Positions 26,164 through 29,637 of a stretch of DNA of 64,000 nucleotides are shown here, one piece after another. The notes below the pieces were generated by a model. It searched no databases and was not told the DNA's origin. It saw only the letters and a list, made by a program, of their open reading frames with translations. The position numbers and the translations under genes were made by a program. The DNA is from Arthrobacter bussei (GTDB lineage: Bacteria; Actinomycetota; Actinomycetes; Actinomycetales; Micrococcaceae): contig NZ_VJXX01000002.1 in assembly GCF_009377195.2 (NCBI RefSeq), positions 248,001 to 312,000 on the forward strand, read 5' to 3'. Every line of letters begins with the position of its first letter. Position 1 is the first letter of the stretch.

Positions 26164-27246
26164 CTAGCGGCGGGTGTCCTTCGCTCCGACGTCGCCCGCC
26201 GCCTGGTCCAGGTCCTCGTCGACGACGGGTGCCTCGGCGACCTCGCCCTTCTCATCCGCGCGCGCCGCGGGGTTGTCCGTCACGCGCGAGCGGATGAGGC
26301 TGGCCACGACGGCGATGACGATGGTCGCGATGATGACGGCCAGGGATACGAAGGTGGGGATCTCGGGCGCCCACTCGATGTGCTCGCCGCCGTTGATGAA
26401 GGGCAGCTCGTTCACGTGCATGGCGTGCAGGACGAGCTTCACACCGATGAACGCGAGGATCACCGACAGCGCGTGCTTGAGGTAGATGAGACGTGTCATC
26501 AGGCCGCCCAGCAGGAAGTACAGCTGACGGAGACCCATGAGGGCGAAGATGTTGGCCGTGAACACGATGAACGCGCTCTGCGTGAGACCGAAGATGGCGG
26601 GGATGGAATCGACCGCGAAGAGGAGGTCCGTGAGGCCGATCGTGACGAACACGATCAGCATCGGCGTGAAGACCTTCTTACCGTCGACGACGGTGCGGAT
26701 CTTGTTGCCGTCGTAGGACTCGGACATCGGCAGGACCGACTTCAGCTTCGAGATGAGCTTGTTGTCGCCTGCGTGCTCCTCGTCCTCGCCGGAATCGGTC
26801 GCCTGCTTGTAGGCGGTGTAGAGGAGGAAGGCGCCGAAGATGTAGAAGATCCAGCTGAAGTTCTCGATGACGGCCGCGCCCAGGGCGATGAAGATGCCGC
26901 GCAGGATGAGCGCGATGATGATGCCCACCATCAGCACTTCCTGCTGGTACTTCCTCGGGACCGAGAACCTGGCCATGATGATGATGAACACGAACAGGTT
27001 GTCGATGCTGAGGCTGTACTCCGTGACCCAGCCGGCGACAAACTGCCCCCCGTACTCCGGACCCGTGAAGACGAACATCAGTGCCGCGAACACGAGCGCG
27101 AGGCCTACGTAGAAGGCGACCCACAGGCCCGCTTCCTTCATCGACGGCTCGTGCGGGCGCTTGACGACGAGCAGCAGGTCGAACAGCAGGATGATGCCGA
27201 GGACGACGAACGTGCCGACCTCGAACGCGAGGGGCAATGTGGGCAT
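26164..27246 (-). CDS. TerC/Alx-family integral membrane protein (likely manganese exporter)
   Basis: 360 aa with about nine hydrophobic helices and the TerC-family acidic motifs in membrane segments: EYSLSIDNLFVF and LTDLLFAVDSIPAIFGLT. A charged cytoplasmic loop (about residues 155-195) and an Asp/Glu-rich C-terminal tail follow the family pattern. TerC/Alx proteins of this type export Mn2+ in several bacteria. ATG 27246 has GGAAGG 6 nt upstream. The riboswitch-like leader directly before the gene supports a manganese role. Confidence 0.9.
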   Translation of the reverse strand: MPTLPLAFEVGTFVVLGIILLFDLLLVVKRPHEPSMKEAGLWVAFYVGLALVFAALMFVFTGPEYGGQFVAGWVTEYSLSIDNLFVFIIIMARFSVPRKYQQEVLMVGIIIALILRGIFIALGAAVIENFSWIFYIFGAFLLYTAYKQATDSGEDEEHAGDNKLISKLKSVLPMSESYDGNKIRTVVDGKKVFTPMLIVFVTIGLTDLLFAVDSIPAIFGLTQSAFIVFTANIFALMGLRQLYFLLGGLMTRLIYLKHALSVILAFIGVKLVLHAMHVNELPFINGGEHIEWAPEIPTFVSLAVIIATIVIAVVASLIRSRVTDNPAARADEKGEVAEAPVVDEDLDQAAGDVGAKDTRR

Positions 27247-27276
27247 GGAGTACCTTCCGGGGGTGCAGTGACGTGC

Positions 27277-27383
27277 CGTAAGTCTCTCCGCCGCGGCATG
27301 CTGCCGACCGACCGCTACGCCCGGCGGAGCAACGATGCTCAGCGTGTTGACGTCCGTAGCGCTTGGGATACTCCCCTACGTCC
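27277..27383 (-). ncRNA. yybP-ykoY (Mn2+) riboswitch candidate in the terC leader
   Basis: On the minus strand the leader carries the class hallmarks in order: GGGGAGTA (27376-27369), GACGTCAACACG, an internal hairpin GAGCA-TCGT-TGCTC, and the closing GGAGAGACTTACG (ending 27277). P1 can form between CGTAG (27380-27376) and TTACG (27281-27277). In known members this RNA senses Mn2+ and controls TerC/Alx or Mn efflux genes. The terC ribosome-binding site lies about 20 nt downstream, so control of translation is plausible. Confidence 0.75.
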
Positions 27384-27388
27384 GCCCA

Positions 27389-27394
27389 ATCCTA
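27389..27394 (-). promoter_or_regulatory. Promoter of the terC riboswitch transcript (-10 TAGGAT)
   Basis: TAGGAT on the minus strand puts the transcription start near 27382, exactly at the beginning of the predicted riboswitch. The remaining part of the terC-uvrB gap (27395-27561) shows only GC-rich inverted repeats and no gene. Confidence 0.6.
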
Positions 27395-27561
27395 CCCGCG
27401 GCGCAGGAATACCGGGGTATGGGCACCTCGAGCCTTGACATCGACCCGGCCGGGCCGATCGACGTGCCACCCCGCACGGTGGACGACGGCGTCCGGCTCG
27501 CCCACGGGCATCGGGACAGTGCCGGGCCCGGACGGCGCGACGAACCCCGCAGCGCCGCAGG

Positions 27562-29637
27562 TCAGGCGTGACCGGCCGACTGCATCTGTCGAAGCTCCTT
27601 CTTGAGGTCGCTGATCTCGTCCCTCAGGCGACCGGCGAGCTCGAACTGCAGCTCGCCGGCAGCAGCATGCATCTGGTCGGTCAGCTGCTGGATGAGATCG
27701 GTCAGATCCTCCGCCGGCACCGAGGCGAGTCCGTCGTGCCGCCCTGCGCCCTTCTTCGGCTTCCGGCTCTTCCCGGCCTCCTCCAGCAGCGCGCGGGTGT
27801 CGGCGTCCTCCCGGTTGATGGTGTCGGTGATGTCGGCGATCCGCTTCCGGAGGGGCGTGGGGTCGATACCGTGTTCGAGGTTGTGCGCCACCTGGATGGC
27901 GCGGCGTCGGTTGGTCTCGTCGATCGCCCGGTCCATCGAGTCCGTGATGCGGTCGGCGTACATGTGCACCTCGCCGGACACGTTGCGGGCGGCACGCCCG
28001 ATGGTCTGGATGAGCGACGTCGTGCTCCTGAGGAAGCCCTCCTTGTCCGCATCGAGGATGCTGACCAGGGACACCTCCGGCAGGTCGAGGCCTTCCCGGA
28101 GGAGGTTGATGCCCACGAGGACGTCGAAGGTCCCCATGCGGAGTTCACGCAGGAGCTCGACGCGCCGCAGGGTGTCGACGTCCGAGTGCAGGTACTCCAC
28201 CTTGACGCCGTGTTCCAGAAGGTAGCCCGTGAGGTCCTCCGCCATGCGCTTCGTGAGCGTGGTGACGAGGACGCGCTCGTTGATCTCCGTGCGCTTGCGG
28301 ATCTCCCCGAGGAGGTCGTCGATCTGGCCCTTGGTCGGCTTGACGACCACCTCGGGGTCGATCAGACCGGTGGGCCGGATGATCTGCTGGACGAATCCGT
28401 CCGCCTTGCCGAGCTCGTACTTGCCCGGGGTCGCCGACAGGTAGACGGTCTGCCCGATGCGGTCGAGGAACTCGTCCCACTTGAGCGGTCGGTTGTCCAT
28501 CGCCGAGGGAAGCCGGAACCCGTGATCCACGAGGGTCCGCTTGCGGGAGGAGTCACCCTCGTACATGGCGCCGATCTGCGGGATGGTGACGTGCGACTCG
28601 TCCACGACCAGCAGGAAGTCGTCCGGGAAGTAGTCGAGGAGGCAGTGCGGCGCGGACGCCGGATCGCGCCCGTCGATGTGGCGCGAGTAGTTCTCGATGC
28701 CGTTGCAGAAGCCCATCTGCTGCATCATCTCGAGGTCGTACGTCACGCGCATGCGCAGCCGCTGCGCCTCGACGAGCTTGTTCTGGGATTCGAACTCGGC
28801 CAGCCGCACCTGCAGCTCGTCCTCGATGTCCTTGATGGCGCGCGTCATGCGGTCCTGGCCGGCGACGTAGTGCGAGGCAGGGAAGACGTACATCTCCTCC
28901 TCCTCGCGGATCACGTTGCCCGTGAGGGGATCGAGCGTGTAGATGTTCTCCACCTCGTCGCCGAAGAACTCGATCCGCAGGGCGTGCTCCTCGTACATGG
29001 GGATGATCTCGACGGTGTCCCCGCGCACCCGGAAGGTCCCCCGGTGGAAGTCCATGTCGTTGCGGGTGTACTGCATGCCGACGAACTGACGCAGCAGCTC
29101 GTCCCGGTTCATCTGATCGCCACGGCGCAGCGTGACCATCTTGTTGATGTACTCCTCCGGCGTGCCCAGGCCGTAGATGCAGGACACGGTGGCGACGACG
29201 ATCACATCGCGCCTCGTGAGCAGGGCGTTGGTGGCCGAGTGCCGGAGGCGTTCCACCTCCTCGTTGATGGAGGAGTCCTTCTCGATGAACGTGTCCGTCT
29301 GCGGGACGTAGGCCTCGGGCTGGTAGTAGTCGTAGTACGAGACGAAATACTCCACCGCATTGTTCGGCAGCAGCTCCCGGAACTCGTTGGCCAGCTGCGC
29401 GGCGAGGGTCTTGTTCTGCACCATGACCAGGGTGGGGCGCTGGACCTGCTCGATCAGCCACGCCGTCGTTGCACTCTTGCCGGTACCGGTGGCTCCGAGC
29501 AGCACCACGTCCTTCTCGCCGGCGTTGATGCGTTCCGCCAGTTCCTTGATGGCCGTGGGTTGGTCACCCGCCGGCTGGTACTCGCTGATGACCTCGAAGG
29601 GCGCGACGACACGCTTGATATCCTGCGCAAGACTCAT
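27562..29637 (-). CDS. uvrB: Excinuclease ABC subunit B
   Basis: Damage-verifying helicase-like subunit of nucleotide excision repair, 691 aa. Walker [14 protein letters not shown], the DNA-clamping beta-hairpin region [19 protein letters not shown], helicase motifs VDESHVT, YLSATPG and TIGRAARN, and the C-terminal UVR domain that binds UvrC ([20 protein letters not shown]). ATG 29637 lies 6 nt after TACCGT, so it is probably leaderless. Unlike uvrA, I see no convincing LexA box upstream. Confidence 0.97.

Follow-up and report, generated by a model that had tools for sequence, protein, structure and literature searches.

A probable yybP-ykoY-type Mn2+ riboswitch at the start of the terC mRNA of Arthrobacter bussei

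In the solved structures of yybP-ykoY riboswitches, an invariable adenosine of L3 and an SRL-like L1 make up the metal site, the L3 context in L. lactis being UCA41 (PMC6754395). The binding of Mn2+ between L1 and L3 stabilises P1.1 in L. lactis and X. oryzae (PMC6754395; PMC11087558), and the L. lactis riboswitch switches a terminator (PMC11087558). In E. coli, the yybP-ykoY riboswitch of the alx leader is turned on by manganese and by alkaline pH (PMC9603457). In V. parahaemolyticus, Mn induces a terC gene that is preceded by a yybP-ykoY element, and termination was not in evidence there (PMC13274385). The class and its link to terC have been published before, as has an actinobacterial case. 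As far as the open-licence PMC literature searched goes, new here are this member, a P2-less actinomycete consensus, and a branch that the current Rfam model, RF00080, misses together with alx.

We analysed a stretch of 64,000 nucleotides from the soil bacterium A. bussei, hereafter the window, in which terC and its leader lie on the minus strand (Table 1). The aptamer ends at 27277, 30 nt from the terC ATG, in the 5' leader of a putative metal-transport gene. An initial annotation of this DNA had placed a Mn2+ riboswitch with three conserved blocks and a closable P1 at 27277-27394, leaving the strand unstated. The blocks and their coordinates proved correct for the minus strand: GGGGAGTA (27376-27369), GACGTCAACACG (27354-27343) and GAGACTTACG (27286-27277). 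The range runs exactly from the -10 hexamer through the end of P1, which can indeed close through CGUAGG (27380-27375) and CUUACG (27282-27277). In minus-strand order, the leader reads TAGGAT, seven bases, A27381, CGUAGG GGAGUA UCC CAAG CGCUACG GA CGUCAACACG..., and its 3' part reads CCGG ... CGUAGCG ... GGA GAGA CUUACG (to 27277), GGAAGG and ATG. The P2 hairpin is absent, just CAAG (4 nt) separating P1.2 from P3, and the variable hairpin differs in length among relatives with its base pairs kept. When positions are equated with those of the solved structures, A27348 in L3 would be the counterpart of the Mn2+-contacting adenosine.

Table 1. Features of the terC leader region, in window coordinates
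Feature	Position	Strand	Basis or remark
terC, TerC-family membrane protein, 360 aa	26164..27246	-	Pfam PF03741, 173.4 bits
Shine-Dalgarno GGAAGG, 18 nt past P1, 6 nt ahead of ATG	27253..27258	-	sequence
yybP-ykoY-type Mn2+ riboswitch aptamer (predicted)	27277..27380	-	R1 match and A1 covariation
P1.1 5' strand CGUAGG	27375..27380	-	partner CUUACG 27282-27277
L1 5' strand GGAGUA	27369..27374	-	3' strand GAGA 27286-27283
P1.2 5' strand UCC	27366..27368	-	partner GGA 27289-27287
P3 5' strand CGCUACG	27355..27361	-	partner CGUAGCG 27319-27313; two-sided changes
L3 5' strand CGUCAACACG	27343..27352	-	CGUCA invariant in 27/27 leaders
L3-closing hairpin (presumably distal P3 of literature naming)	27324..27342	-	RNAalifold and covariation
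L3 3' strand CCGG	27321..27324	-	kept in 22/22 diverse terC leaders
Variable hairpin between P3 and P1.2 (presumably P4 of literature naming)	27290..27312	-	
-10 hexamer TAGGAT (TANNNT)	27389..27394	-	T 95%, A 97%, T 97% in 60 non-redundant leaders
Predicted transcription start A, first aptamer base	27381	-	A in 90% of 60 leaders

The terC leader (27277-27381) was confirmed as a conserved structured RNA by comparison among relatives. A protein search with TerC led to 555 confirmed loci, and in 75 of the best 80 of these the three blocks occur in order ahead of terC, with 1, 1 and 2 mismatches allowed. From these 75 leaders, 26 non-redundant ones were aligned with that of the window (alignment A1, 27 rows), for which RNAalifold returned P1.1, L1, P1.2, P3, L3, the L3-closing hairpin and the variable hairpin. 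Covariation was tested on this structure with one outer pair added (28 pairs). In total, 96.4% of the A1 cells are paired, and 11 of the 28 pairs show two-sided changes compared with a shuffle mean of 5.3, the real count being equalled in none of 500 shuffles; slid versions of the structure pair 29-45% of cells. The P1.1 pairs hold in 92.6% of cells, with the outermost (added) pair failing in 12 of the 27 leaders. GGAGUA, GAGA and CGUCA are each invariant in all 27, and the base following the sensing adenosine of L3 is either A or G. P1.2 is invariant throughout A1 and shows compensated variation only in a wider set, A2, which comprises 23 diverse matches including alx. In A2, 94.9% of cells are paired and 24 of the 28 pairs have changed on both sides, compared with 16.6 in the shuffles on average; this alignment was fitted to the structure, and its rows L001 and L117 are visibly misaligned at L3. 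The invariance of P1.2 in A1, together with a conservation that takes in the -10 region, could also mean that the likeness to the class is superficial, the sequence being conserved promoter and leader DNA or a protein-binding hairpin. However, helices that change on both sides, a hairpin whose length varies while the blocks around it stay fixed, and a match of the resulting model to alx in another phylum make such a mere resemblance extremely improbable.

This covariance model, R1, was built from A1 alone, i.e., from terC leaders of the Arthrobacter group with alx left out. The E. coli alx riboswitch (L121:1872-2002) is detected by R1, with a score of 36.5 bits (E 5.8e-8; 17 sources searched), while the model's 115.8 bits at 27384-27274 of the window are a match by construction, the window being part of the alignment. 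The check that had been suggested with the initial annotation, a search with RF00080, returned no match in the window at the gathering score and none over 27000-27600 (601 bases) at E ≤ 10. By the refutation criterion given with that annotation, this negative would on its own have weighed against the riboswitch. However, RF00080 (Rfam 15) also returned no match at E ≤ 10 in 401 bases for the accepted alx riboswitch, and none at E ≤ 0.1 in 17 of 17 terC loci tested, all R1-positive (16 of the 22 R1-positive Actinomycetes loci described below and a second terC of the same genome). Since RF00080 misses alx and all 17 of these loci, its silence on the window is uninformative, and it was dropped as the deciding test for want of power. 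Among 149 genomes of the order, RF00080 exceeds its cut-off in none and matches at E ≤ 0.01 in 10, and R1 recovers 8 of these 10 sub-threshold loci, missing L119 and L120. For E. coli mntP, RF00080 gives 41.6 bits, below its 45-bit cut-off, and R1 gives no match at E ≤ 10. We read this as a current Rfam model that leans to an mntP-like L3, while the L3 of the Arthrobacter leader is like that of alx and L. lactis; for L. lactis, the comparison used what we take to be the full riboswitch sequence. The core of the leader is the same as in alx/L. lactis-type RNAs, and with the detection of alx by R1 the yybP-ykoY assignment made in the initial annotation holds. Membership of the terC leader in the class is confirmed at the level of the family, and its conserved core suggests Mn2+ binding.

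The element is not confined to the window. Of 38 genomes in the genus, the own genome counted, 37 have a DNA match to the leader, although the match in G027 is a 30-base piece only. A TerC match was found in 98 of the 118 Actinomycetes genomes drawn, and 30 terC loci from this diverse set were returned. Among the 29 that remain without the window's own, R1 matched 22, all at E ≤ 8.5e-6, the other 7 being without an R1 match. All 22 leaders have CGUCANNNCG, CGUCA, CCGG and GAGAC, and GGGAGUA occurs in 21, the exception being L142. Other R1 matches lie ahead of TerC genes (L112-L114, by likeness) or of GDT1 genes (L118 by Pfam, L115 and L116 by likeness). In the genome of A. bussei itself, R1 matches ahead of a second terC, a Pfam assignment (L169:594-701, G000:C34; 42.8 bits), which RF00080 misses, and ahead of a VIT1-family gene (L001/L171:2035-2145, minus strand, G000:C39), where R1 scores 25.1 and RF00080 20.1 bits; a third terC (L170) has no R1 match. 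An R1 scan of the phylum matched at least 16 of 296 genomes, an undercount, as it took 12 candidates per genome under strict filters and missed the own-genome copies. The current RF00080 is silent on a group of leaders that includes E. coli alx, and annotation by RF00080 alone will miss them.

An intact element is missing in 5 of the 80 relatives, with no trace in L026, L028, L029 and L032 and with an altered L3 in L027 (L027:1355-1473), which still scores 62.1 bits with R1. The four without a trace (A. koreensis, A. pullicola, A. luteolus and Arthrobacter sp. Edens01) have terC but no aptamer; in its place, an inverted repeat rich in G+C, with T's on its 3' side, was seen by eye in their leaders (bases 1250-1500). 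As a separate observation, a locus titled Vibrio cholerae strain 35D (L003, WNZI01000004.1) encodes a TerC 92% identical to the Arthrobacter-group protein of the window, behind the same leader, and this assembly is probably mislabelled.

The initial annotation had also placed the transcription start at the edge of the aptamer, and the relatives bear this out: a conserved TANNNT ends 7 nt ahead of a conserved A (A27381) that opens P1. Weaker promoter columns among the 60 non-redundant leaders are a T at -18 (77%) and a GG that adjoins the hexamer on its 5' side (87-88%), while no -35-like hexamer stands out in their upstream regions and a general sigma-70 scan at the terC leader gave no full -35/-10 promoter. 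For terC of C. glutamicum, Table 2 of PMC3890552 gives 2,043,157 as the beginning of an RF00080 match and 2,043,151 as the mapped start, which lies 6 nt inside the match, and thus the same start geometry is documented in the phylum. In several relatives (e.g., L012, L021 and L023), a uvrB-like reading frame was seen by eye to stop directly 5' of the terC -10 hexamer.

The proximity of the aptamer to the ribosome-binding site had suggested a very compact expression platform. The distance stands, with 18 nt from P1 to the Shine-Dalgarno sequence, but a switching mechanism to go with it did not emerge, complementarity tests against shuffles being at chance level and revealing no significant helix that would sequester the ribosome-binding site. 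In the window, the 5' strand of the aptamer can pair with the ribosome site (GGAGUAUC/GGUACUCC); this pairing was rejected as the platform, as it is at chance level, with 231 of 1000 shuffles as good as the real sequence in the case of the window. Only 3 of 75 leaders fall within the lowest 5% of their shuffles, and the mean z over 76 is 0.90. Directly 5' of the Shine-Dalgarno sequence, CCCUGCG or a near variant occurs in 53 of the 75 leaders. When P1 was forced in folding, the Shine-Dalgarno sequence was opened in 13 and closed in 33 of 53 leaders, and the mean opening of the start codon rose from 0.35 to 0.46.

Premature termination, intrinsic or by Rho, might take the place of translational control: E. 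coli mntP is reported, in the title of PMC11647493, to be controlled through both Rho and a riboswitch, and L. lactis uses a terminator (PMC11087558). However, no terminator-like site was found in 27000-27700, which bears on intrinsic termination and not on Rho. Control of this kind with the same aptamer, which concerns the mechanism only and overlaps with our preferred explanation, is possible but doubtful. Because no terminator-like site was found, we favour, with moderate confidence, control at the start of translation, perhaps with the assistance of Rho. The direction would be ON, by analogy with alx (PMC9603457) and V. parahaemolyticus terC (PMC13274385).

Folding energies single out the window from most of its relatives. 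Its native fold lies 10.2 kcal/mol above the computed optimum, compared with 7.7 for L005 (a close relative), 6.3 for L054 and a median of 0.6 kcal/mol over the 27 leaders, in energies that omit metal, tertiary contacts and co-transcriptional folding. The single-sequence probability exceeds 0.5 for P3 in 21 and for P1.1 in 9 of the 27, with the window in neither group. A 135-base stretch around the window leader, folded alone, is no stabler than shuffles (z -0.70), and the best computed fold of the window's leader is not the aptamer; single-sequence folding was accordingly discarded as support for the aptamer. The rival fold may come from the limits of such a computation, may represent the RNA when free of Mn2+, or may mark a decay of the aptamer in the window lineage.

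The deficits of the window and L005 against the median, together with loss or decay elsewhere (L026, L028, L029, L032 and L027), could mean that the aptamer is real in the genus and impaired in the window lineage, where the rival fold wins. However, the window keeps all the invariant core bases, and the computation leaves out the factors named above, and we judge such an impairment very improbable. A more far-reaching reading joins two claims: that the actinomycete terC, GDT1 and VIT1-family leaders form a large P2-less (three-way junction) branch of Mn2+ riboswitches unseen by the current Rfam model, and that the window lineage carries a built-in, far stabler rival fold that joins the 3' side of L1/P1.2 to the 3' strand of the L3-closing hairpin and that could itself be the Mn2+-free state, replacing a separate expression platform. 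The two claims taken together seem unlikely.

Our preferred explanation, which we consider highly probable, is that the terC mRNA begins with a yybP-ykoY Mn2+ riboswitch of ~105 nt, which has an L3 of the kind found in alx and L. lactis and controls TerC by Mn2+. At high cytoplasmic Mn2+, the ion would be bound against A27348, in a site between L1 and L3, the legs would dock, P1.1 would be stabilised and the ribosome site 18 nt downstream would be used; the TerC so produced may then clear Mn2+ from the cytoplasm or deliver it to exported enzymes. At low Mn2+, P1.1 would open and terC would be low, most likely at the start of translation and perhaps with Rho. The main signal of an aptamer derived from yybP-ykoY might also be another divalent ion or alkaline pH, as suggested by the response of the alx reporter to alkaline pH too (PMC9603457) and by the A/G variation after the sensing adenosine. 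However, the core keeps the bases lining the metal site of the solved structures, and GDT1 and VIT1-family genes lie behind other R1 matches, which makes a signal other than Mn2+ improbable. With Mn2+ as the probable ligand, the membrane protein encoded by terC probably serves manganese balance, and actinobacterial TerC proteins, named for tellurium resistance, would be tied to manganese. The link between TerC and manganese drawn in the initial annotation is right, and is in print already for other bacteria.

Compared with the described systems, we note the following likenesses and differences. First, the L. lactis and X. oryzae riboswitches share with the terC leader the invariable L3 adenosine, the L1 loop and the switch helix P1.1 (PMC6754395), whereas their solved structures are four-way junctions with P2 and the terC leader is P2-less and three-way. 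In addition, L. lactis switches a terminator (PMC11087558), whereas none was seen in the terC leader region. Second, the leader of C. glutamicum cg2157 (terC) comes from the same phylum and precedes the same gene; it scored 49.13 bits with an older RF00080 model (PMC3890552) and is compared here through its table entry. Third, the leader of E. coli mntP belongs to the same class and has the L1 block GGGGAGUA, whereas its L3 is of the GUCAACAUACU type. Fourth, E. coli alx differs in a longer 3' hairpin and in a G+C content of 0.49 versus 0.67 in Arthrobacter, and its match ends ~78 nt before its ATG, whereas the Arthrobacter aptamer runs from the predicted +1 to 18 nt before the Shine-Dalgarno sequence. 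In the R1 alignment, only 2 nt separate P1.2 from P3 in alx, and thus accepted members of the class lack P2 too. With the Arthrobacter leader, alx shares the L1 of GGGGAGUA/GAGA, the L3 of CGUCANNNCG...CCGG, a junction with no room for P2, and a TerC-family gene.
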